From positions 124,001 through 188,000 of the forward strand of contig NZ_QTJU01000006.1 in assembly GCF_003412455.1 (NCBI RefSeq): a DNA stretch of 64,000 bases, written 5' to 3'. Source of the stretch: Deminuibacter soli (lineage in GTDB: Bacteria; Bacteroidota; Bacteroidia; Chitinophagales; Chitinophagaceae). The translations under genes and the position numbers were made by a program. Positions 34,176 to 44,972 of the stretch are shown in pieces. The notes under the pieces are model-generated. The model saw only the letters and a program-made list of their open reading frames with translations, ran no database searches and was not told where the DNA came from. The first letter of the stretch is position 1. Every line of letters begins with the position of its first letter.

Positions 34176-35579
34176 TTATTTAAAATCTACCGTACACGAT
34201 ACACAATTGATCATGAATTTTGGTCCGCCGCCACTGCCTACTTTGGCGGTAAAATGGCGCGGGTTGTCATTGTCCTGGAAACCGCTCATAGCAGTCATGC
34301 GTGGCTTTGGGCTGGCAGCATACATGCCCGATTTTTCGCCTTTCTCGCCCTTGTCCCTGTCGCTCTTATCGCCCTTGTCCCCTTTTTCTCCTTTATCGCC
34401 TTTGTCTTCAGTATCGGCTACAGGCACCTTTTCAAACGAGCCATATACGTTATTGTAATTACCCTGCATTTCTACAGAATAGTTCTGCAAATCGCGCACA
34501 GGCAGGCGTACATCGGCATATTTGTTATCAATTTTTACGGTGCTTACAGAAGATGCAGTATTGCGGATGCGGATGTCTGCATTGCTGCCTTCTATATCAA
34601 TGCTTTTGGTGAGTGTACCTATACGCAGGTTGCCATAGTTTTTGCGGCCGGTTAACGTACCCACGCTTTCAATATCATAGTCTTCGCTGTTGCTGCGGAT
34701 GTTGAGGCTGGTAATGGTACCCAGCTCAATAGTACCGTATTTGCTGTCGATATCAATTTTATCGCCATTCTTAATGGTCATACGGCCATTTTCATTTTCT
34801 ATTTCACCGTCTTTACAGCTGTGAATGGCAGTGTTGCCGTATTTGGTGCGCAGGAGCAGTTTGTCTACGTCTTCAATTTCAACCTGTGAGCGGTTGGCCA
34901 CCAGCTTCAATTCTGCGTGTTTGCCACTAATGGTTACAGGTGCATCACGGTTGTCAATTTCAAGACGGCAATCGGCAGGCACGTATACCGTGTAAACAGA
35001 TTTACGCGGGGTTTTGGAAGTACTGCCTTCTTTACCGGCGCTGGCATCGGTATTTTCGCTTTTATTGTATGAACCGCCATAGGCACCCACCCTGAATTTC
35101 GGGCCATAGCTGTAGAGGTAGCCATTGTCCCTGTTGTTTGCTATAATCTGCAGGCCATCTGTATAGCTTTTAACACTGATGCCTATTTTTTCAAGCAATT
35201 CATCTTCCGAAATATCATCGGCATTGCGCGCGAGCGAAAAGCTGGCCACCAGCTTTACCTTGTTTTCACCCCAGGTTTTTATCTCAAAGTTGCGGTTGTT
35301 GTTCTCAATCAGCACTTCGCCTGATTTTCCAACCGTGTACTCGCGGGTAATGGTTTTGTCGGTGTAGGTTATTTTTCCCTGTTCGTCGTTGTTGTCGCTG
35401 TTGTCTCTAACATTGCCGTAACCGCTTACATTGTATTCACTGTGTGTAATAACCCTGGTTTTGGCGCGCACGGTGTCTACGCGGACATTGACTGTAGTAG
35501 TGGTTTGCGCGCAAACTGCGCCGCCAAGGATGGTTAAAACGAGGGATAATGTGTAGAATATTCTCATATCGTTGCGCAT
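34176..35579 (-). CDS. Secreted DUF4097-like protein with collagen-like tail
   Basis: A 467-residue exported protein (signal peptide ending GAVCAQ). The middle is a repetitive right-handed beta-solenoid of the DUF4097/adhesin type (rungs such as KLLLRTKYGNTAIHSC, KIDIDSKYGTIELG and KSIDIEGSNADIRI). After it, around residues 395-425, comes a low-complexity run of G-D/E-K triplets, collagen-like in periodicity, then a short Cys-containing end (NCVSC). DUF4097-type proteins often follow ECF sigma/anti-sigma pairs, as here (10 bp after the anti-sigma candidate). Its role is unknown; surface exposure is likely. Starts at 35579 or 35567. Confidence 0.72.
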   Translation of the reverse strand: MRNDMRIFYTLSLVLTILGGAVCAQTTTTVNVRVDTVRAKTRVITHSEYNVSGYGNVRDNSDNNDEQGKITYTDKTITREYTVGKSGEVLIENNNRNFEIKTWGENKVKLVASFSLARNADDISEDELLEKIGISVKSYTDGLQIIANNRDNGYLYSYGPKFRVGAYGGSYNKSENTDASAGKEGSTSKTPRKSVYTVYVPADCRLEIDNRDAPVTISGKHAELKLVANRSQVEIEDVDKLLLRTKYGNTAIHSCKDGEIENENGRMTIKNGDKIDIDSKYGTIELGTITSLNIRSNSEDYDIESVGTLTGRKNYGNLRIGTLTKSIDIEGSNADIRIRNTASSVSTVKIDNKYADVRLPVRDLQNYSVEMQGNYNNVYGSFEKVPVADTEDKGDKGEKGDKGDKSDRDKGEKGEKSGMYAASPKPRMTAMSGFQDNDNPRHFTAKVGSGGGPKFMINCVSCTVDFK

Positions 35580-35589
35580 AAAGCGTTAA

Positions 35590-36315
35590 TTAAATGTTCA
35601 TGAAACTGGGTGATGACTGATCATCCTGGTGTTGTTTCCAGGCATTGTTGGTTTTGATGATTTCGTTCTGCAGCTGTTTCAGCACGTTTATCTTTTGCTG
35701 GTAAATATCAATGAGCGCACTTAACTGTTCATCGGTAATTCCGGTTTTAGCGATGCTGCGTTTTAATGCTTTCTCATCTTCTTCCAGCTGCTGGAACTGG
35801 TGTTTAAAACTGCTGTAGTACTGTGGCCCTTCGGCGTACATAGGCATGCTGCGTACTTTATCGAGCTGCATGTTAATTACAGAAATAAATCCCGCTTCCA
35901 GGTGGTGCAGTACCAGTGTTTCATCGGGATGCGTTGGCACTTGTTCAGGCTTTGCTGCAGCAGTGCCTGTTTTACGTATGCTTTCGCCATTGGTGTTTTT
36001 ATGTGCTGCTATGGTGCTGTGTTCTTCCGTTGCCGCCTGCGGCTGTTCAGCCATAGCGGGTGTTTCAGGTGTATGGCTTACAGCCGGTTGCGTTGTTACA
36101 GCTACCGTATTGGTGTGGCGGGGTATTACCAGCCATACCATGCAGCCCAGCAACACGGCAATACTTGCCGCTACTGCCCAGCGCAGGTACAGGCGAACAG
36201 GCGCTTTTTTGGTGGCATTGATATCCTGTTCAATGCGCTGCCACACCATGGGGCGCGGCGCGTCTGTATCCAGCTCATCCGCATGCTGTTGCAGGTATTG
36301 TTTAAATGGATCCAT
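35590..36315 (-). CDS. Putative membrane anti-sigma factor
   Basis: A 241-residue single-pass protein: an N-terminal cytoplasmic part (DPFKQYLQQHADELDTDAPR, then WQRIEQDI), a membrane helix (WAVAASIAVLLGCMVWLVIP), a Pro/Thr/Ala-rich periplasmic linker and a C-terminal coiled coil (QQLEEDEKALKRSIAKTG, then ALIDIYQQKINVLKQLQNEI). No zinc-finger motif is present. The position immediately after the sigma factor, overlapping it by 14 bp, and the topology are what suggest an anti-sigma role; sequence alone does not prove it. The ATG at 36315 is used. Confidence 0.68.
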   Translation of the reverse strand: MDPFKQYLQQHADELDTDAPRPMVWQRIEQDINATKKAPVRLYLRWAVAASIAVLLGCMVWLVIPRHTNTVAVTTQPAVSHTPETPAMAEQPQAATEEHSTIAAHKNTNGESIRKTGTAAAKPEQVPTHPDETLVLHHLEAGFISVINMQLDKVRSMPMYAEGPQYYSSFKHQFQQLEEDEKALKRSIAKTGITDEQLSALIDIYQQKINVLKQLQNEIIKTNNAWKQHQDDQSSPSFMNI

Positions 36316-36859
36316 CTGATACAAGTTTTCTGGTGATGCGCTCTTTCAGCAATTGCCTTGCCCGCAGGTACTGCGATTTGCTGGTAGATTCTGATATGCC
36401 CAGCTGCTCGGCAATTTGCCGGTGACCAAAGTCTTCCAGCACGTATAAATTAAATATCTGCCTGCACCCGTCGGGCAGGCTTCTTATTTCCTGTTGCATT
36501 AAATCAAACGGGATCTGTGTGTACCAGTCTGCCCCGCTGTCGCTCAGTTCATCTTCGTATTTTTCATCCCAGTCGTTCCAGTAAAAATGTTTTTTGGCAA
36601 AACGGATACATTCTGTGATCACTATCCTGCGCAGCCAGCCGCCGAACTGTTGTTCTTCTTTCAGCTGGTGCAGTTTCTGGAAAGCGATGATGAACGATTC
36701 GTGCAATACATCTTCTGCATCGTTACGGGTGCCGGTCATCCGGATGCAAATACTGAACATGGCCTTGCTGAACTGGTTGTACAAGTGCTCGAAGGCCTTT
36801 GTATCACCCGTCCGGGCTTTTCTCACTGTTGCTGTTAGTATATGTTGTGCCTGTTCCAA
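36302..36859 (-). CDS. ECF-type RNA polymerase sigma factor
   Basis: A 185-residue extracytoplasmic-function sigma factor. Region 2 (DAEDVLHESFIIAFQKLHQL) and region 4 (LPDGCRQIFNLYVLEDFGHR, then QIAEQLGISESTSKSQYLRA) are both clear. It should direct RNA polymerase to a small regulon probably including its own operon. The start is a TTG at 36859, since no ATG lies near. It overlaps the anti-sigma candidate by 14 bp, the usual sign of translational coupling. Confidence 0.9.
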   Translation of the reverse strand: MEQAQHILTATVRKARTGDTKAFEHLYNQFSKAMFSICIRMTGTRNDAEDVLHESFIIAFQKLHQLKEEQQFGGWLRRIVITECIRFAKKHFYWNDWDEKYEDELSDSGADWYTQIPFDLMQQEIRSLPDGCRQIFNLYVLEDFGHRQIAEQLGISESTSKSQYLRARQLLKERITRKLVSDGSI

Positions 36860-36944: not shown

Positions 36945-38021
36945 TTATTTCGCGTGCATCCCTGCATCGGGCGCTGCCGGCAAAACCATGCTGGCAGGAA
37001 TGCCAAACCGCTTGTCGGTGATAAAAGCGCTGTCTGTAAGGGTATATAAAAAGGCTTTCAACTGGCCTATTTCAAAATTAGACAAAGGAATGCCCTTCTG
37101 CAAAAGAGGGTCGGTGGTGGGGGTATTAACCACGCCGCTGCGGTAATGCTGCAGTACATCGTCAATGCTGTAAAAACGGCCGTCGTGCCCGTAAGGGGCT
37201 GTAACAGCCACATTGCGCAGGCTCGGCACTTTGAATTTCAGTGAATCGGTACTGTGGTGGGTAATGCGCATACGGCCCAGATCGTTCAGGGTGGTATCTG
37301 CCGGCAGACCAATATTGCGGTAGCTGAAATCGGTAAACAGCGGCTCCGCATGGCAGGAAGCGCATTTTTGCCGGAAAATGGCATAGCCGAGACGTTCCGG
37401 CAGGTTAAAACTGGCTGTGCCGCGTTGTACCCGGTCGTATTTGCTGCCGGCGCTTACCAGGGTAAGCAGAAACTGGCTCAGCGCCTGCATGGTGCGGCGC
37501 GTATTGATGGTGGCATCGCCAAAGGCAGCGGTAAACTGTTTGCGGTAGCTGGTATCTGCCCGCAGTTTTTTAAGCACACTATCTATGGTTTCGGCCATTT
37601 CGTTGGGTGCGGTAAGGGGTGCTAAAGGCTGCAGATCAAGATGGTTGATGCCCCCATCGTGCATAAAGGAGGCCTGCCAGGCCAGGTTAAACAGGGCCGG
37701 TGCGTTGCGGGTAGTCAAGGTATAATTATAGCCATGGCTTAAACTATGGTCGTAGGTAGAGAAGGCGGCGAATTGCTGGTGACAGCTGGCGCAGGGGAAA
37801 TTGCCGTCTTTGCTTAAACGGCCATCGTAAAACAGGCGCCGCCCCAGGGCAATACCTTCCTGTGTCAACGGGTTTTCTTTAAAGGGGTAAACCGGCTTAG
37901 GCCAGCCTTCCGGGATATCGAAATGAACAATCGTGGGTGTATGCACGGCTTCACGGGCAATAAAACTGCTGCCGGCGGCTATACAGGCCGTAATGAATAA
38001 TATGTACAACCAGCGCTTCAT
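36945..38021 (-). CDS. MauG/MbnH-type diheme cytochrome c
   Basis: A 358-residue exported diheme protein (signal region MKRWLYILFITACIAAGSS) of the cytochrome c peroxidase/MauG family. Both heme sites are CASCH (C77, C80, H81 and C220, C223, H224). A C-terminal VPSLRNVAVTAPYGHDGRF segment is typical. In methanotrophs MbnH is a MauG-family enzyme that oxidises a tryptophan of the copper protein MbnP; this gene starts one base inside an mbnP homologue (stop and start share an A), so I read it as the MbnH partner. Length is slightly above MauG. Distal heme ligands could not be assigned, and peroxidase rather than MauG-type chemistry cannot be excluded. Confidence 0.85.
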   Translation of the reverse strand: MKRWLYILFITACIAAGSSFIAREAVHTPTIVHFDIPEGWPKPVYPFKENPLTQEGIALGRRLFYDGRLSKDGNFPCASCHQQFAAFSTYDHSLSHGYNYTLTTRNAPALFNLAWQASFMHDGGINHLDLQPLAPLTAPNEMAETIDSVLKKLRADTSYRKQFTAAFGDATINTRRTMQALSQFLLTLVSAGSKYDRVQRGTASFNLPERLGYAIFRQKCASCHAEPLFTDFSYRNIGLPADTTLNDLGRMRITHHSTDSLKFKVPSLRNVAVTAPYGHDGRFYSIDDVLQHYRSGVVNTPTTDPLLQKGIPLSNFEIGQLKAFLYTLTDSAFITDKRFGIPASMVLPAAPDAGMHAK

Positions 38022-38728
38022 TACCGTTCGGCTGCAATATAGAACATGCCAGCATAATTATCGGCCAGTTGCATGGCCAGGGCACCGGGTTCATGGCAAA
38101 CCGGGTGCTGTGCAATTGTTACGGTATGTGCCCCGTAAAAAAAGCGCAGGGCATCGGCTGCAATAACAATATGATCACCCGCTATGGCAGGTAATTGCAA
38201 TGTTACCGTACGGTTGCTGCATTCGCCTTCGCGAAAGCCGCCCACATCATAAGTACAGTAATGACCGGGTGCGCCAGATGCAGGCGATCTGCCTTCCAGC
38301 CTGGCCATGATATAACCGCTGTTCCAGGTCCAGAACATGCCCCTGGCAGGATCGAGGGTACCGGTTTGCACACCTTCCGTATTTTTATTACTGTCGACCC
38401 CGATGGTAAACCTGACAAATGCGGGTTGCGCCACCGCTTGCTGTAAAACAATGTTCTGAGAGGTGGTATCGGCCAGGTCAACCAGGTAAGTACTGTCGCC
38501 CAACGAGTGAAATACTTCATCTTTCCCTGCTACTTCCAAATGGCTTACATAAAATTTGAAAGCACGCACGGTAAGTTGTTCTCCATGTATATTGATATAG
38601 GTATGGCCCGGGAGCAGGATTGAATCTGCCGCCTTCGCCGCAAACTGCCATACCCAGGTAAGCTGGCTGTTTTGTGCCACAGCCAGCTTACTGAGTAATG
38701 CCAATAAACAAATAAACAACCCTTTCAT
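38021..38728 (-). CDS. mbnP: MbnP-like copper-binding protein
   Basis: A 235-residue secreted protein (signal ending AVAQ) with the MbnP signature: TIGVDSNKNTEGVQTG followed by GMFWTWNSGYIMARLEG (W133, W135). MbnP from methanotrophs binds copper and carries a tryptophan converted to kynurenine by MbnH. Here two tryptophans lie in the signature segment, and a C158/C170 pair and several His (H43, H157, H208, H212) could assist folding or metal binding. The diheme gene follows with a one-base stop/start overlap, as expected for a modifier and its substrate. No methanobactin precursor is visible, so the role is probably general copper uptake or storage. Which Trp, if any, is modified is unknown. 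Confidence 0.85.
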   Translation of the reverse strand: MKGLFICLLALLSKLAVAQNSQLTWVWQFAAKAADSILLPGHTYINIHGEQLTVRAFKFYVSHLEVAGKDEVFHSLGDSTYLVDLADTTSQNIVLQQAVAQPAFVRFTIGVDSNKNTEGVQTGTLDPARGMFWTWNSGYIMARLEGRSPASGAPGHYCTYDVGGFREGECSNRTVTLQLPAIAGDHIVIAADALRFFYGAHTVTIAQHPVCHEPGALAMQLADNYAGMFYIAAER

Positions 38729-38734
38729 GCGCTG

Positions 38735-40381
38735 TTACGCCTGCTTTTGTGCCAGGCGTTTTTTACGAACGAAATATAACACTAATCCCACAACCACCAG
38801 CAGTATTTGCAGCGAAGCAGCCACAATGGTACTGCCGTCTCGCACCTGTTTGCCTGCCCAGTCCATAAAATGGTGTTTGTGCAGCAGCGCAAAGCTGTAG
38901 CCTTCATACATATCGAGGTTGTTGATATGTGCCGCGAGTGCGCCGGAAGTGGTTTCTACAAAAAAACGTTCATCGTGATGGGCGGCATAGGCAATCTTCC
39001 ATACAGGCAGGCGTTTGTTGATAAAACCATACTCATCGGTAAACGCGGTTACCTGGCTGCTGCTTTGTACTTCATTAACGGTATGGTGCCCCAGCATATT
39101 GGCCAGGTATACGGCATACTGCCGGTCGCCCTCTGGCAGCTGCGTATAATCGCCTGCATCAATGTAGCGGATATCTGGGGCTGCGGCCTTCATGTCTTTC
39201 ATCAAATCCATATGATGTGCCGGTGCCTGCATGTGTTGCTGTGCGGGCAGCAGCAGTATCTGCCAGTAAGGCCTGCCGTTCATTTGTACCAGTGCAATGT
39301 TGGCGATGCGTGCAGTACTGTCGTCCAATGCCTGGCTCACGCGTGCGAAATCCCATTGTATATTTTTTGTATGAAACACCTGTGCCACGGCCTGTGGTTT
39401 TTCTTCGGGCCTGGTGAGCTTGGTAAATGCATGGTAGCCTCCGCTGAAAGAAAACATCAGCGTAAAAACTGATGCCACCACGGCGGTATAACGATGTCTT
39501 TTCCTGGCCTTCACCAATGTATTGCCGCTGGCCTTGCCAGACTTTGTATTGAAAAACAGATACAAACCAGCCACTGCAGTTAAAAAGGCCAGCAGGGCCA
39601 AACCCACTTCCACAGCGAATTTGCCGCTGCCCAGGAACTGTATCCACGACCAGGTATGAAACAATTGAAAGAAGGTGTCAAAAGCTGCACGGTTATGATC
39701 TACGGCAAAAGCAAAGCGGCTTTGTGCTGTTTCAACATAGATCCTGATGCCGTCTGCACGCGCAAAATCCACGCGGTACACAGGTAGCAGATGATTGATG
39801 GGTTTATATTCGCTGGTAAAGCCTTCCACAAAACTCACGTTGTTTATTGCTGCCCCGCCCTGCGTATCATTGGCCATGCTGCTTGCAGCACTGCAACAAT
39901 CTTCCTCAGCAGCGGGTGCAGCTGCCTGCGGTACACTTGCAGCAGCCGTGGCAGGCATTGCCATGTGCCGGTGCTGCATGTTGTCTTTACCGGCTGCATT
40001 GCCATTGCCTTCCAGGAATTGTTTGGCGAGGTAACGTGCATACAGGGCATCCCCGTTGTTCAGCAGTTTGCCATTCAGTGTACTGAAATACAGCAGTCCG
40101 CTGAACTGCGGCACTTTTACCTGGTAAAACCAGAAACGCCCGATATTCACCAGCCGCATGCTGGTAAATGAATCAATATGGCTCTGCTGCAATACCTGTT
40201 GCAGCGGCACTTTCAGCATAGCTGTATCAACAGCCTGTGCCTGTATGGACTGCTGTTTTACCTTGGGCCGCATATTCGTCATCAACGGGTGCATTAACCC
40301 GCTGGTAGCCCAGAGCAAAACAGGTACAGCAATGATAATGCTTAGTTTGCGGTGCCAGTTATAGAGTTGTTTGATGGTCAT
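38735..40381 (-). CDS. PepSY-associated membrane protein with Met/His-rich insert
   Basis: A 548-residue inner-membrane protein. It begins with a PepSY-type membrane helix (WHRKLSIIIAVPVLLWATSG), has a periplasmic PepSY domain, then further helices (VEVGLALLAFLTAVAGLYLF, FTLMFSFSGGYHAF) and a C-terminal helix (LQILLVVVGLVLYF). Two Met/His-rich stretches stand out: DNMQHRHMAMP plus a CCS pair after it (about residues 133-165) and QQHMQAPAHHMDLMKDM in the second periplasmic loop. Both are typical of copper-binding segments. It lies 6 bp before mbnP and just downstream of a TonB receptor gene, so it may help pass metal across the inner membrane or reduce it. The frame runs upstream to a TTG inside a repeat; ATG at 40381 is preferred. 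Confidence 0.8.
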   Translation of the reverse strand: MTIKQLYNWHRKLSIIIAVPVLLWATSGLMHPLMTNMRPKVKQQSIQAQAVDTAMLKVPLQQVLQQSHIDSFTSMRLVNIGRFWFYQVKVPQFSGLLYFSTLNGKLLNNGDALYARYLAKQFLEGNGNAAGKDNMQHRHMAMPATAAASVPQAAAPAAEEDCCSAASSMANDTQGGAAINNVSFVEGFTSEYKPINHLLPVYRVDFARADGIRIYVETAQSRFAFAVDHNRAAFDTFFQLFHTWSWIQFLGSGKFAVEVGLALLAFLTAVAGLYLFFNTKSGKASGNTLVKARKRHRYTAVVASVFTLMFSFSGGYHAFTKLTRPEEKPQAVAQVFHTKNIQWDFARVSQALDDSTARIANIALVQMNGRPYWQILLLPAQQHMQAPAHHMDLMKDMKAAAPDIRYIDAGDYTQLPEGDRQYAVYLANMLGHHTVNEVQSSSQVTAFTDEYGFINKRLPVWKIAYAAHHDERFFVETTSGALAAHINNLDMYEGYSFALLHKHHFMDWAGKQVRDGSTIVAASLQILLVVVGLVLYFVRKKRLAQKQA

Positions 40382-40483
40382 GATGGATTGATGGTTCAAT
40401 TGTTTAATAGTTCCATGGTTTCATTTTTTGCTTTTCCCTGCGCTCTTTGCGTAAAAACTTTGCGTTCTTTGCGGTTAAAAAAA
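40382..40483 (-). repeat. Two intergenic repeats between the TonB receptor and PepSY genes
   Basis: On the minus strand the TGA stop of the receptor gene is followed by TTTTTTTAACCGCAAAGAAC and several CGCAAAG units (40428-40483), then by a ATGGTT/AACCAT-type repeat (40382-40425) ending at the PepSY start codon. Confidence 0.6.
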
Positions 40484-42814
40484 TCACCTTCCCAGCCTGT
40501 ACGAAACGCCTACCGTTATTTCCCGGGGATCGCCGAGGTTATAGCTGTAGCCGTAGGCTGATTTGGTGGCCAGGATGGAATAATATTTATTCAACACATT
40601 CAGCGCGTTTACCCATATATCCATGCGTTGCAGGTTGTAGCCGGCGCGCACATTGAAGATGTCAAACCCGCTGTACTGCTTGCTGTTCGCATTGTCCATG
40701 TAATATTTACCCAGGTGCTGCCATTCAATACCAATGCGGAAGCCTTTAATAAATACAGGCTTGTACATCACTTCTGCATTGGCTATGAATTTTGGCGCTG
40801 CGCTCATATCATTGCCACTGTAATCCACGTTACCGCGGCCGTTTTTCTCGATGTCTTCTACCAGCGTATGGTGTGCATTGGTAGCACTCAAACGAAACAG
40901 CCACTGGGCGGTGGGTTTATAATTAATACCGTATTCAATACCCTTGTGCCTGGTTTTACCGGCGTTCTGGTTTTGTGTGGTGCCATCGTTCTGCAATACG
41001 GAGATGATTTCATTGGTACCGTTCATGAGGTAAGCACTCCAGTCAGCATACAGTTTGTTCTGTACCAGTGAAAACCAGCCACCCACTTCATAGTTGAAAA
41101 AGGTTTGCGGTTTCAGGTATGGCACTTTTACACTGTTGAACAACTCGGTAACCTGCGGCGGTACATAGCCCTGGCTGTAGTTGCCGTATACACCTATGCC
41201 GTGATAATTGTACGTAAAGCCCAGCTTGGGTGTTACGCGGTTAAAATCATTTTTGGCAGAAGGTGATCCGGTAGAAGCTGATGGTGGCAGGTGGTTGGTG
41301 AAATTGTAATGATAGAAATCATACCGCAGTGCACCGGTGAATTTCAGGTGACGAAGGGGCGTTATTTCAAACTGCGCATACGATGCCAGGTTGCTGATAC
41401 CGGTAGCGTAATTGCTCAGCAATGAATCCGTTGGCGTGTAACTGGTGTAGTTGCCCTTGGGATCGCGCTGTACGCTGATGTAATTGGCTACATAGGTACT
41501 CGGACTAATATCTGCACTAATGCCGCCGGTTATTTTACTGCCCAGCCAGTTCAGCTTTTGCTGATGCTGTGCAATAAACAGGTAGCTGTGAAAAGAGCTG
41601 TTGTTGATTTGCCCGTTGGCCTGTAATGCAGTGGCACCGGGTGTTATATAGTACGATGGGTTTTGTTTGATGCTGTTGTTGCGGTATAATATGGCTACCT
41701 GCGTTTGGCTGTTGTTGTTCCAGGCTTGTGTAAGCTGTGACTTCACCCGCAATGCATCTGTTTTGCGATAGGTGAATGAATAAGGTGTTGAATAATCCTT
41801 ATGGGCAAAATGCGCACTGTCCAGTGCGCCGGTCATATCGCTGTAGTAATGAATATAACTTACCGCGTTGGTCCATGTGGTTTTATCGGTGGGCTTGTAA
41901 TCGGCGCGTACAGTGACCGCAGTTTTGTTGTAGTCGCTGTAATCAATCGGGCCATCATGCCGGTTGGCATAATAACCGGTGGCCACCACACCCCATTTGC
42001 CAAAGCTGGTGCCTGCCTGTATATCTGCCCTTTTGTAGCCGTTGTTGTTGGCCTGTATGCCAATGGTGGCGCCAGGTAAGGCCGGTGGTGCTGCGGTTAA
42101 AATATTCACTGCCCCTCCCACAGCTTCTGCACCATACAGGGCCGATGCAGGGCCGCGGATCACTTCTATCTGCCTGGCTGCAGCCATGTTCATTTCAAGC
42201 AGGGCGTTGTGGTTGTACAAGCCCGTGGTGCGGATGGGAATGCCATCTTCCAGGTACAAAAAAAGGCTCTTGGTGGTGAGCGGCTGGCGGATGCTCATTT
42301 CATGCTGTTCGTTACCCAGGCTAACCATAAATACACCGGTGGCTTTGTTCAGCAACTGGTCTAACCGGTTCGCCCTGGTGTCGCTGATGGTTTGTGCATT
42401 AATGGTGCTGATGGCTACCGGCACATCGGTGCGTTTTTGTTCTGTACGGCTGCCGGTGACCACGACTTCCGCCAGTTTATTGTTTACCGGCTGCAATGCA
42501 ATATGCTGCTGTGTTTTACTGATGCTGAGCTGTACCGTAGCATAGCCCATGCAGCTGATGAACACTTCTTCATTATTGTTTACCTGCAGAGAAAAGTTAC
42601 CCGATGCATCACTGAAACTGCCTTTGCCGGTGCCTTTCACCTGTATGGCGGCATGGCTGATGGGTTCGCGCGTAATGCTGTCGAACACCTTACCGGTGAT
42701 TAAAGTTTGTGCAGTTACGGCATGCGCAATGCATAGCAATAAAATGGTTAATACGTACGCAAACGCCTTTCTGCCGGTTGTTATGGCTGATCTGTTATTC
42801 CTGAAGCGATTCAT
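40484..42814 (-). CDS. TonB-dependent receptor (putative copper uptake)
   Basis: A 776-residue TonB-dependent outer-membrane receptor. After a long signal region (ending AHAVTAQ) come a carboxypeptidase-regulatory-like domain (GKVFDSITREPISHAAIQVK), a plug with the TonB-box-like VVVTGSR and IRGPASALYGAEAVGGAVNI, and a barrel ending REITVGVSYRLG. The operon with PepSY, MbnP and MbnH makes a metal, probably copper, complex the best guess for its ligand; the sequence itself does not say. B. theta-like SusC features are absent, so it is of the classical siderophore/metal receptor type. Confidence 0.85.
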   Translation of the reverse strand: MNRFRNNRSAITTGRKAFAYVLTILLLCIAHAVTAQTLITGKVFDSITREPISHAAIQVKGTGKGSFSDASGNFSLQVNNNEEVFISCMGYATVQLSISKTQQHIALQPVNNKLAEVVVTGSRTEQKRTDVPVAISTINAQTISDTRANRLDQLLNKATGVFMVSLGNEQHEMSIRQPLTTKSLFLYLEDGIPIRTTGLYNHNALLEMNMAAARQIEVIRGPASALYGAEAVGGAVNILTAAPPALPGATIGIQANNNGYKRADIQAGTSFGKWGVVATGYYANRHDGPIDYSDYNKTAVTVRADYKPTDKTTWTNAVSYIHYYSDMTGALDSAHFAHKDYSTPYSFTYRKTDALRVKSQLTQAWNNNSQTQVAILYRNNSIKQNPSYYITPGATALQANGQINNSSFHSYLFIAQHQQKLNWLGSKITGGISADISPSTYVANYISVQRDPKGNYTSYTPTDSLLSNYATGISNLASYAQFEITPLRHLKFTGALRYDFYHYNFTNHLPPSASTGSPSAKNDFNRVTPKLGFTYNYHGIGVYGNYSQGYVPPQVTELFNSVKVPYLKPQTFFNYEVGGWFSLVQNKLYADWSAYLMNGTNEIISVLQNDGTTQNQNAGKTRHKGIEYGINYKPTAQWLFRLSATNAHHTLVEDIEKNGRGNVDYSGNDMSAAPKFIANAEVMYKPVFIKGFRIGIEWQHLGKYYMDNANSKQYSGFDIFNVRAGYNLQRMDIWVNALNVLNKYYSILATKSAYGYSYNLGDPREITVGVSYRLGR

Positions 42815-42978
42815 ATAGTTGGTTAAAGTTGATACCGCCCTGTTACAGCATCACTTGTGCAAGTGCCTGCTGCCGGGCGTGCAGAGAACAAGAAACAGGG
42901 AATCTGCATGCTGAAACAGGCACAGGCCACTACAGGCATATTTATTATGCCATGCAGCTGCAATGGTGCGCGCCATTA

Positions 42979-43341
42979 TCAGCACAAACCAGCTTTATCA
43001 GGGGGATGAAAATAACCGGCAGGCATATCTACCGGGCGGCCAATGGTGCGTATACCGGGCCATTTAACCTTCAATGGAGTATAATGCAAAATGACAATGT
43101 CAGCAGTTACGGCATCAAACGCACCGGCATTTATTTCAATGCTTTTGCGGCCATTGCTATCCTGGTCTTTGTTCTCTTCCTGGCGCAGTTTTTTGTTCAG
43201 CTGGCATTTGCCACAACAGTTTAGCTGTGGCTTGCTGCGGTTTTCGCACAGGTTTTGTGCAATATAACTGCGGTTGGCATAAAAGTTCAGCACCACAAAG
43301 CCTGCGCTGAAAGTTTGTACCAGCAGTACCAGTAATAGCAA
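42979..43341 (-). CDS. Cys-rich small secreted protein B
   Basis: About 120 residues: hydrophobic leader (LLLVLLVQTFSAG), FYANRSYIAQNLCENR, then KPQLNCCGKCQLNKKLRQE, and a His-Pro-Pro end (YFHPPDKAG). It is a paralogue of the gene at 43518. The C-x8-CCGKC motif suggests metal binding; linkage to the copper operon supports this. The start is unclear: no ATG is present. The frame opens after a TAA at about 43378, and the segment starting at an ATC (IKQTVTILLLL) aligns best with the paralogue's signal peptide. The TTG at 43341 is the first conventional alternative. No known family recognised. Confidence 0.65.
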   Translation of the reverse strand: MLLLVLLVQTFSAGFVVLNFYANRSYIAQNLCENRSKPQLNCCGKCQLNKKLRQEENKDQDSNGRKSIEINAGAFDAVTADIVILHYTPLKVKWPGIRTIGRPVDMPAGYFHPPDKAGLC

Positions 43342-43378
43342 TATGGTGACCGTTTGTTTGATCGGGGGAAACTGTTAA

Positions 43379-43430
43379 TAGTTGTATGGTTGCATGGTTA
43401 AATTGCTGCATGGCCGGATGGTTTTCGCCG
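43379..43430. repeat. ATGGTT-family intergenic repeat
   Basis: GTTGTATGGTTGCATGG followed by TTAAATTGCTGCATGG and CCGGATGG, between the two Cys-rich small genes. Confidence 0.5.
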
Positions 43431-43517
43431 TTCCGTCATTACATAGATTTACCTGTGCAAAGCACCTGCGTTTATGGTTGTGTTACTTTGCCTGAAGTGG
43501 CAATAAGGAAGTTGTTT

Positions 43518-43892
43518 TTAAGCGCAGGGCGGATGAAAACAGGCGCTGTTGGTACCTGCTGCAGTAACAGCTGCGTAAACAGGATAAGTGCGCTTAATGG
43601 TGTAGTATATCTTTTCAGGATGCGTTAGGGCAAGCAGGGTTTCACAGAATATTTCGCTGCGGCTTTCGGCCTTGCGTTCCGGGTTCTGCTCGTCTTTTTT
43701 GTCTTCCTGTTTTAATTTCTTGTGAAGCTGGCATTTACCGCAGCAGTTCAACTTGGGTTTGCCACGGTTTTCGCAGAGTTCTTTGGCGATGTAATCCCGG
43801 TTGGCATAAAAATCCAGCACAATCACCACTTTACTGAAGGTTTGCGCCACAAGGCCAAGGAGTAATATGCACGCTGTTAAATACTTTAACAT
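43518..43892 (-). CDS. Cys-rich small secreted protein A
   Basis: A 124-residue protein with a signal peptide (MLKYLTACILLLGLVAQTFS) followed by FYANRDYIAKELCENR and KPKLNCCGKCQLHKKL (C40, C50, C51, C54), a charged EDKKDEQNPERK linker, and a C-terminal CFHPPC (C118, C123). It is the first gene of the copper-type operon and a tandem paralogue of the next gene. The clustered cysteines and HPP ending are suited to Cu(I) binding or to a disulfide-stabilised periplasmic peptide. No established family name could be assigned from the motifs. A TACCTTTG promoter sits directly upstream. Confidence 0.72.
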   Translation of the reverse strand: MLKYLTACILLLGLVAQTFSKVVIVLDFYANRDYIAKELCENRGKPKLNCCGKCQLHKKLKQEDKKDEQNPERKAESRSEIFCETLLALTHPEKIYYTIKRTYPVYAAVTAAGTNSACFHPPCA

Positions 43893-43906: not shown

Positions 43907-43914
43907 CAAAGGTA
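43907..43914 (-). promoter_or_regulatory. Promoter -7 element of the copper-type operon
   Basis: Minus-strand TACCTTTG matches TAnnTTTG exactly, 14 bases upstream of the first start codon. The -33 region overlaps the lipA terminator stem and no TTTG is visible there. Confidence 0.5.
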
Positions 43915-43917
43915 TAA

Positions 43918-43941
43918 AAAAAGGGCCTTCAGGCCCTTTTT
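43918..43941 (-). terminator. lipA terminator
   Basis: GGGCC pairs with GGCCC around TTCA, flanked by complementary A- and T-runs. It sits between lipA and the downstream operon. Confidence 0.75.
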
Positions 43942-43983: not shown

Positions 43984-44916
43984 CTAGCCTACCATCGCAT
44001 TTTTCTCTTCCATCCATTTTTTGCGGCCGTATCCTGCAAATACATGACGCTCGCTGTGGTAAGAAGAACGTACCAGCGGACCGCTTTCCACGTAGTCAAT
44101 ACCCATCTGGTAGCCTATTTCACGCAGTTCTGCAAACTCGTCGGGGTGTACAAAACGGTGTACAGGCAGGTGTTTCTGTGTAGGCTGCAGGTACTGGCCA
44201 ATGGTTACCACGTCGATGTTAACAGCGGCAAGGTCTTCCAGGGTTTGCACCACTTCTTCTTTTGTTTCACCCAGTCCCAGCATAATGCCGGTTTTGGTAC
44301 GCATGCCGCCTTCTTTCAGCACACGCAATACTTCCAGGCTGCGGCGGTATTTGGCCTGTATACGCACCTGGCGGGTAAGGCGTTCTACTGTTTCCATGTT
44401 GTGGCTTACCACTTCAGGGGCAGCATCAATAATGCGCTGGATATTTTCTACCTGGCCTTTAAAATCAGGTACCAGGGTTTCGAGCGTGGTACCGGGGTTT
44501 AATGCTTTTACGGCTTTAATGGTGTTGTACCATATAATAGAACCGCCGTCTTTCAGTTCATCCCTGTCAACGCTGGTTAATACCGCGTGTTTTACCTTCA
44601 TCAGGTTAATGGCTTCTGCCACGCGCTGGGGTTCGTCCCAGTCAACCGCGTCGGGGCGGCCGGTAGCTACGGCGCAAAAACCGCAGCTGCGGGTACAGGT
44701 GTTACCCAGGATCATAAAAGTGGCGGTGCCTGCACCCCAGCATTCGCCCATATTGGGACAGTTGCCGCTTTCGCAAATGGTGTGCAGTTTATGTGTATCA
44801 ACCAGGTTGCGTACATGCTTATAGCTTTCGCCAATGGGCAGTTTAACGCGTAACCAGTCAGGTTTTTTTACTCTTGTTTCGGCTTCAATCTTCGCTACTA
44901 CCGGTAATTCTTGCAT
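43984..44916 (-). CDS. lipA: Lipoyl synthase
   Basis: A 310-residue radical-SAM enzyme that inserts two sulphurs into protein-bound octanoyl groups, making lipoate for pyruvate dehydrogenase and similar complexes. The auxiliary cluster ligands [12 protein letters not shown] and the radical-SAM motif CTRSCGFC are intact, as are GLGETKEEV and the C-terminal RSSYHSERH serine ligand region. It is monocistronic, with its own promoter and terminator. The ATG at 44916 is used; a GTG lies one codon upstream. Confidence 0.96.
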
Positions 44917-44972
44917 CACTTCTTATTTGAATGGTTCCATTGTTCTTTTGCAAAAACAAATTAATCAGGCTG

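Follow-up and report, generated by a model that had tools for sequence, protein, structure and literature searches.

In a 64,000-nucleotide (nt) stretch of the Deminuibacter soli genome (contig NZ_QTJU01000006.1, positions 124,001 to 188,000; hereafter the window), six open reading frames (ORFs) lie in a row on the minus strand, from position 43892 down to 36945. The first two, uORF1 and uORF2, encode short Cys-containing peptides which we consider likely to be copper-responsive leader peptides, a Bacteroidota version of CruR/CutF-type leaders. They are followed by genes for a TonB-dependent outer-membrane receptor, a PepSY_TM protein, MbnP and an MbnH/MauG-type diheme protein. A preliminary description of this DNA had named the same six consecutive genes, and the ORF list and Pfam searches confirmed both their identities and their positions. 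It had also taken the two Cys-rich products for new secreted components of a copper uptake system. These ORFs proved to be real and to be linked to mbnP, but two consecutive prolines (PP) at the end of their products and a fixed spacing between motifs make regulatory leaders the likelier reading.

Two Cys-rich ORFs at the head of the operon

uORF1 (43518–43892, minus strand) encodes 124 amino acids (aa) from an ATG start. The product has a hydrophobic N-terminus, the proposed copper-binding motif CCGKC at residues 50–54 (codons at 43731–43745) and the ending ACFHPPCA, in which FHPP (residues 119–122, codons at 43527–43538) is the proposed arrest motif. uORF2 (42979–43341, minus strand; 120 aa, start codon uncertain) encodes a second Cys leader peptide that is 48% identical to the first, carries the same putative copper-binding and arrest motifs (CCGKC codons at 43204–43218 and FHPP codons at 43000–43011) and ends in GYFHPPDKAGLC. 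CxGxC and PP are exactly 66 residues apart in both peptides, and PP starts four residues from the end in uORF1 and eight residues from the end in uORF2. In both, CCGKC also contains CGKC; the middle Cys is not conserved across the family described below. Neither peptide matched a Pfam or NCBIfam family at E≤0.1. The gap after uORF1 measures 176 nt, and that between uORF2 and the receptor gene (42815–42978, minus strand) 164 nt.

A terminator-like hairpin (43918–43941; 10 pairs, five of them G-C, with a loop of 4 and A/T tails on both sides) lies between uORF1 and lipA (43984–44919, minus strand; Pfam Radical_SAM and LIAS_N). The hairpin is symmetric and was scored on the plus strand only; on the lipA-coding strand seven T come after it, and it probably ends lipA transcription. 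At 43907–43914 on the minus strand, 14 nt before the uORF1 ATG, we found TACCTTTG, a match to TAnnTTTG, which we take to be the Bacteroidota −7 promoter consensus. This element was present within 100 nt upstream of the script-chosen start in 52 of 140 homologues of the Cys ORFs, compared with 119 of 2800 random windows drawn from those regions (4.25%), and 47 of those 52 had it within 22 nt of the start. On the two strands of the window it was observed 26 times against 58.5 expected, a depletion that would fit a role as a promoter element. Because the lipA terminator-like hairpin and the promoter element both lie upstream, the six genes from uORF1 to MbnH look like a single transcription unit in which translation would begin with a Cys ORF. 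By its layout, terminator and promoter element, the window thus has a Cys ORF in the CruR-type head position, as the first gene before a TonB receptor and a PepSY_TM protein. A dispersed repeat suspected around 43947 was not supported (one match).

A probable leader family in Bacteroidota and its known counterparts

Searches for relatives of the two peptides covered Bacteroidota genomes. A first search detected homologues in 26 of 39 genomes, the window's own included; 39 places were found, and the 30 given as loci were aligned. Seven columns (C40, N42, C50, G52, C54, P121 and P122) were invariant in this alignment and PP stood near the stop in 30/30, as FHPP in 24, with the stretch between CxGxC and PP hardly conserved. 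A model built from these 30 homologues showed that the leader family is present in 118 of 296 Bacteroidota genomes. The strongest 150 places fell in 114 of the 118 positive genomes, and regions were read for 140 of the 148 places outside the window, the eight lowest-ranked being left out; the first 30 homologues and these 140 places have four places in common. All 140 homologues contained CxGxC, and all 140 had PP within the last 20 residues, a position where PP occurred in 18 of 419 further ORFs from those regions. In 120 of them PP was followed by two to four residues.

Since the first model contained the C-terminal end, the search was repeated with an N-terminal model only, and PP was again at the end in 57 of 57 homologues (53 by script, four others individually). 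These were read from 118 places, all 57 in genomes new to that search, and comprised 40 hand-picked across the score range and 17 from the loci given. The CxGxC-to-PP distance was 60–74 residues in 188 of 193 homologues (mean 66.8, standard deviation 3.5); a shorter spacing of 49–56 residues occurred in five of the 140. DUF2946 (PF11162) was not among the families matched at E≤1 by 30 members of the family, and NCBIfam gave the same 30 only stray matches (one or two members, E 0.009 or weaker).

In 135 of the 138 places with a gene after the leader, that gene pointed the same way (median gap 121 nt); in the other three it lay on the opposite strand. Two further regions of the 140 lacked a following gene, and at tandem leaders the second uORF can count as the next gene. 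Among the 135, this first downstream gene encoded a TonB receptor (Plug domain) in 57 and MbnP in 29, and less often a YtkA-like (9), SCO1/SenC (3) or YHS-domain protein (3). Conversely, a Cys ORF was found upstream of MbnP, on the same strand and within 8 kilobases (kb), at a minimum of 42 of the 101 MbnP places in the 296 genomes, which is a lower bound because just the 150 strongest Cys-ORF places entered the comparison, and at least 36 of the 101 had one within 500 bases. Among the matches listed, no Cys ORF lay within 15 kb on the strand opposite MbnP, and one genome carried a second Cys-ORF copy downstream of MbnP. The co-occurrence of small Cys proteins with mbnP, which the preliminary description had put forward as a check, was thereby borne out.

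Several individual loci were recorded in the course of these searches. Tandem leader copies about 0.5–0.6 kb apart occur in the window and in two other genomes (G285 and G242). The nearest similar run is in genome G162, where a leader and, 1.2 kb further on, a TonB receptor (24% identical to that of the window) are followed in the same orientation by DJ-1/PfpI, MbnP and MbnH genes. Longitalea luteola (locus L272, 4185–7612) carries a pair of MbnP genes that point away from a common direction; the one on the reverse strand has an FHPP leader before it and MbnH after it. In genome G278 (locus L315, about 1480–1863), a DUF2946-type ORF ending in RGPPGLLA (25.4 bits, cut-off 23.7) directly precedes MbnP, as if one kind of leader could replace another in this position. 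DUF2946 was above its cut-off in 5 of the 296 Bacteroidota genomes, and in 22 at E≤0.01.

The closest functional parallel is CruR of Bordetella pertussis (bp2923, a DUF2946 protein). The nascent CruR chain senses copper via CXXC, the RAPP motif is required for expression of the downstream genes and the signal sequence is dispensable (PMC9426467), and arrest was later demonstrated in vitro (PMC12992588). The proteobacterial cruR-crtA-PepSY_TM operon has the layout seen in the window, with a 162-nt gap after cruR (PMC9426467, PMC12914433) as compared with 164 nt after uORF2. In both this operon, also described as cruR-crtA(bfrG)-crpH (PMC9426467, PMC12914433, PMC13038864), and the window, a small exported-type ORF with a Cys pair, PP just before the stop and a fixed Cys-to-PP spacing heads a TonB receptor and PepSY_TM operon. 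However, the leader family is set apart from DUF2946 by profile, has CxGxC (CxxxC) in place of CXXC and keeps about 66 residues between the Cys and PP motifs rather than about 45. CruR ends with RAPP three residues before its end, whereas the 140 leader homologues have FHPP (48), DHPP (21), FRPP (17) or other, mixed endings, RAPP in none and RGPP in none. The tandem leaders and the added MbnP and MbnH genes further distinguish the window from the CruR operon. Small secreted upstream ORFs with a C-terminal PP and with TonB or copper genes downstream were also described among the RAPP/RGPP arrest peptides (PMC12992588), which differ from the leader family in the same endings.

CutF of Rhodobacter capsulatus resembles the leader family in having CxxxC, and has a proline-rich end; it requires Sec export and lies ahead of a multicopper oxidase gene, whose translation it increases in response to copper (PMC9973294). 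Its two motifs are about 45 residues apart, compared with about 66 in the leader family, and its authors placed the site in the outer vestibule of SecY, estimating 30 residues for the ribosome and 17 for the membrane (PMC9973294). On that estimate, 66 residues would put CxGKC fully outside at the time of arrest, and it is therefore predicted that the leader family should need its signal sequence. Bacteroidota account for 40% of the published CutF-like list when normalised and for 19% otherwise (PMC9973294). That list was assembled with filters of <150 aa, PP in the last 15 residues, an N-terminal signal and a same-strand gene at <1,000 nt (PMC9973294), all of which uORF1 and uORF2 pass, their signal being judged by the hydrophobic N-terminus alone. 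CutF-like peptides in Bacteroidota are therefore already in print, and we read the leader family as a probable Bacteroidota form of CruR/CutF-type leaders rather than as a new kind. A study of Sec/YidC-linked arrest peptides reported Bacteroidota clusters of another kind (PMC10987492), and among the papers listed by our literature searches we recognised none as describing FHPP or this leader family.

Proposed regulation and competing explanations

We propose that the window contains a copper-acquisition operon that would be controlled by two tandem copper-responsive upstream ORFs. The gene identities, the two motifs with their fixed spacing, the head position, the promoter element and the linkage to receptor and MbnP genes are observed; the arrest, the copper binding, the way the genes respond to copper and the transport itself are ones that we infer. 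Each uORF would yield a short peptide with an export-type N-terminus, uORF1 being transcribed from a promoter that lies nearly up against its ATG. The ribosome would tend to arrest at the FHPP codons beside the stop; CxGKC, 66 residues earlier in the chain, would by then have left the ribosome and probably have reached the outer opening of SecYEG or passed it, and copper binding at this motif would alter the arrest. By analogy with CruR, the stalled ribosome would keep the downstream genes expressed when copper is absent, and release of the ribosome in the presence of copper would shut them off. The receptor, the PepSY protein, MbnP and MbnH would thus be made under copper scarcity: the receptor might import a copper chelate, the PepSY_TM protein might reduce it, and MbnP, completed by MbnH, might hold copper or hand it on, perhaps for heme-copper oxidases. 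The genome carries two COX1 genes.

The family suggests a switch, open to experiment, for MbnP and for copper import across a large phylum, FHPP becomes a candidate new ribosome-arrest sequence, and nascent-chain rulers of 45 and 66 residues provide a built-in comparison by which cytoplasmic and periplasmic sensing could be distinguished. A survey found copper-related RAPP/RGPP leaders missing in Bacteroidota, a gap that the leader family may fill with a different ending; Bacteroidota could in addition have RAPP-type leaders of TonB receptors. We put forward only tentatively, and with rather less than even confidence, a bolder claim: that the copper-sensing arrest peptides of Bacteroidota form a separate class without sequence relationship to DUF2946, with a new arrest ending that is typically F-[H/R]-P-P and a 66-residue ruler that sets the copper site beyond SecYEG, so that translation itself would read periplasmic copper. 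On this view the two tandem peptides in the window would act as a double gate on one operon, and the class would be a common switch for MbnP in other Bacteroidota.

The hydrophobic N-termini, the invariant Cys residues and the neighbouring copper-type genes are also what would be expected if the Cys ORFs encoded mature periplasmic copper-binding proteins, such as chaperones or metallothionein-like proteins, acting beside MbnP and the TonB receptor. We regard this explanation as distinctly unlikely, since conservation falls on one Cys region, a constant spacing and a terminal PP, with hardly any in the middle; moreover, PP beside the stop in every homologue examined would be unexpected for a chaperone, and the next gene is co-directional in nearly all places (135/138). 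If the products are leader peptides, the response could nevertheless run in the direction known from CutF, with copper on the exported nascent chain prolonging arrest and the operon being turned on under copper excess for defence or storage. The CxxxC site of CutF, like that of the leader family, and its requirement for Sec export (PMC9973294) favour this direction, and a distance of 66 residues suits sensing on the periplasmic side. However, the downstream genes are often of import type (TonB receptors in 57/135, PepSY_TM in the window), which is the set repressed by copper through CruR (PMC9426467), and the downstream start showed no evidence of occlusion (n=107). We consider the CutF direction a serious contender but somewhat improbable; given leader peptides, shut-off by copper appears about twice as likely as induction by it.

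Neighbourhoods of the closest MbnP relatives bear on whether the receptor and the leader serve MbnP at all. Among at least 570 confirmed relatives, the best 80 in named genomes were kept, so that this set leans to MbnPs near that of the window, and neighbours were sought up to 7 kb on each side (E≤1e-8, coverage 40%). MbnH adjoined MbnP on the same strand in 75 of these 80 loci, a relative of the window's TonB receptor or PepSY protein occurred in none, and a Cys ORF lay upstream in one of the 72 loci with at least 2.5 kb of upstream sequence, the other 71 being without it. Taken together, these counts show that the operon in the window joins two modules usually found apart. The receptor and the leader could then serve another metal or chelate, with MbnP-MbnH having been joined to them by chance, and the lack of receptor and PepSY relatives beside the best 80 MbnPs speaks for this. 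We give such an explanation little credence, and the least of those considered here, because the leader family directly precedes MbnP in 29 of 135 places and TonB receptors in 57, and because the run in G162 unites leader, receptor, DJ-1/PfpI, MbnP and MbnH in one direction, albeit across the 1.2-kb gap. The wider copper uptake system envisaged in the preliminary description is supported by the linkage of the Cys ORF to MbnP and weakened by the missing receptor and PepSY relatives and by the rarity of the leader in the best-80 MbnP loci.

Those two counts also weigh against the control of a copper-acquisition operon by leader peptides that we favour, and several further observations have to be set beside them. 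FHPP is the commonest ending but accounts for just 48 of 140 homologues, and FHPP or FRPP together for 65, so that the residues preceding PP vary; ribosome stalling at FHPP has not, to our knowledge, been reported. The listed start of uORF2 is a TTG at 43341, which shortens the signal, and the open frame upstream of it contains no Met; the alignment with uORF1 suggests that the start lies further upstream, at a non-standard codon in the region 43341–43375. The coupling step, whether Rho, a hairpin or another, finds no support in the RNA: gaps of the leader family fold strongly in comparison with shuffled sequences (mean z −2.52, n=123, versus −0.39 inside genes; −2.65 for the stretch surrounding the uORF2-receptor gap and −0.29 for the gap after uORF1), but control same-strand gaps of 40–400 nt from the same loci are equally folded (mean z −2.72, n=110), and pairing at the downstream start (0.57, n=107) is nothing unusual beside that in shuffles (0.54). 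An RNA switch or hairpin in the gap was dropped on these grounds, and intrinsic attenuators, found in 5 of 123 gaps against a shuffled expectation of 0.2, are too few to be a general mechanism. A bias of C over G across the uORFs (0.043, versus −0.006 in the next genes) is small and lacks a matched control, and gives only a hint of Rho involvement.

MbnP, MbnH and the putative transport genes

The MbnP gene (38021–38728, minus strand; 235 aa) matched Pfam MbnP (PF20243; E 2.7e-38) with 132.2 bits against a cut-off of 27, and scored 29.2 bits, below the cut-off of 140, with the NCBIfam equivalog TIGR04052. Its neighbour (36945–38021, minus strand; 358 aa; Pfam CCP_MauG, E 2.1e-48) overlaps it at the single base 38021, as had been reported in the preliminary description, and fell below the cut-offs of both TIGR04039 (186.9 bits, cut-off 362.85) and the NCBIfam MauG model (181.4 bits, cut-off 443.85). 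In methanotrophs, MbnH makes the kynurenine in MbnP. Tryptophans W133 and W135, which had been singled out for this modification, stand at the positions claimed and form a WxW that is invariant in 83 of 83 aligned MbnPs. In MbnH, the CXXCH heme motifs (C77/C80/H81 and C220/C223/H224) were present in 77 of 77 aligned sequences, W115 in 76 and Y293 in 75; Y293 aligns with a Tyr of 6e1c, and the equivalent residue is presumably a heme ligand. In CorA, copper is held between two His with kynurenine nearby (PMC3912023).

The putative metal site of the window's MbnP departs from the common pattern. Asp161 (codon 38246–38248) occupies a column that holds His in 77 of 83 sequences and Asp in 6, so that it is shared with five other MbnPs as a natural variant, and in the profile alignment this column matches a His of 7l6g. 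With Asp at a near-invariant His column, a complete standard copper site in this protein is doubtful. Together with the rarity of the leader in close-MbnP loci (1/72), Asp161 counts against the interpretation of MbnP in the preliminary description. The structure model of MbnP (mean predicted local distance difference test, pLDDT, 78.9) had 7l6g, MbnP of Methylosinus trichosporium, as its closest solved structure (Foldseek E 9e-7, TM-score about 0.5). A sequence search of the PDB with the window's MbnP alone gave chance matches only; a profile search found 7l6g.

The window pair is like MbnP-MbnH, CorA-CorB and MopE-SACCP in its WxW MbnP domain, its adjoining MauG-type partner and its best fold match (7l6g), but differs in having Asp for His, in scoring below the TIGR04052 and TIGR04039 cut-offs and in having no MbnB-type gene. 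A profile search of the Deminuibacter soli genome for the MbnB family (PF05114) found none, and the earlier statement that methanobactin is absent holds for this marker. The spread of MbnP-MbnH pairs far beyond methanobactin producers has already been noted (PMC3621798), and CruR homologues have been described at the head of operons that contain MbnPH-like genes (PMC9426467).

The TonB-dependent receptor (40484–42814, minus strand; 776 aa; Pfam TonB_dep_Rec_b-barrel, E 1.5e-36, and Plug, E 1.2e-17) is a probable importer of a copper chelate. All 21 aligned rows of uORF-linked receptors keep M163, H171, M173, H202 and H649, and these Met and His residues would suit a copper ligand; two receptors appear twice among the rows, each having been reached from both of its tandem uORFs. 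The published CrtA logo has two conserved His and, as shown there, no conserved Met (PMC12914433), whereas uORF-linked receptors keep M163, M173 and several His. The PepSY_TM protein (38735–40399, minus strand; listed from a TTG, with an in-frame ATG at 40381) matched PF03929 (E 4.4e-13) and has conserved H16, H37, H248, H302, H323 and H507. The Met/His-rich insert attributed to it earlier was found, together with a DCC motif; in five relatives, DCC occurred in two and the insert was missing in three. A PDB sequence search with this protein gave no match at E≤1, and we regard it as a candidate copper-chelate reductase of the CrpH/FoxB-like type. CrpH, its proteobacterial relative, supports heme-copper oxidases (PMC13038864).

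Further along the minus strand, ORFs at 35590–36324 and 34176–35579, which have no Pfam match at E≤0.001, lie beyond the gene that comes next after the operon on the same strand (36302–36859), which encodes a sigma-70-type factor, probably of the extracytoplasmic function (ECF) group.

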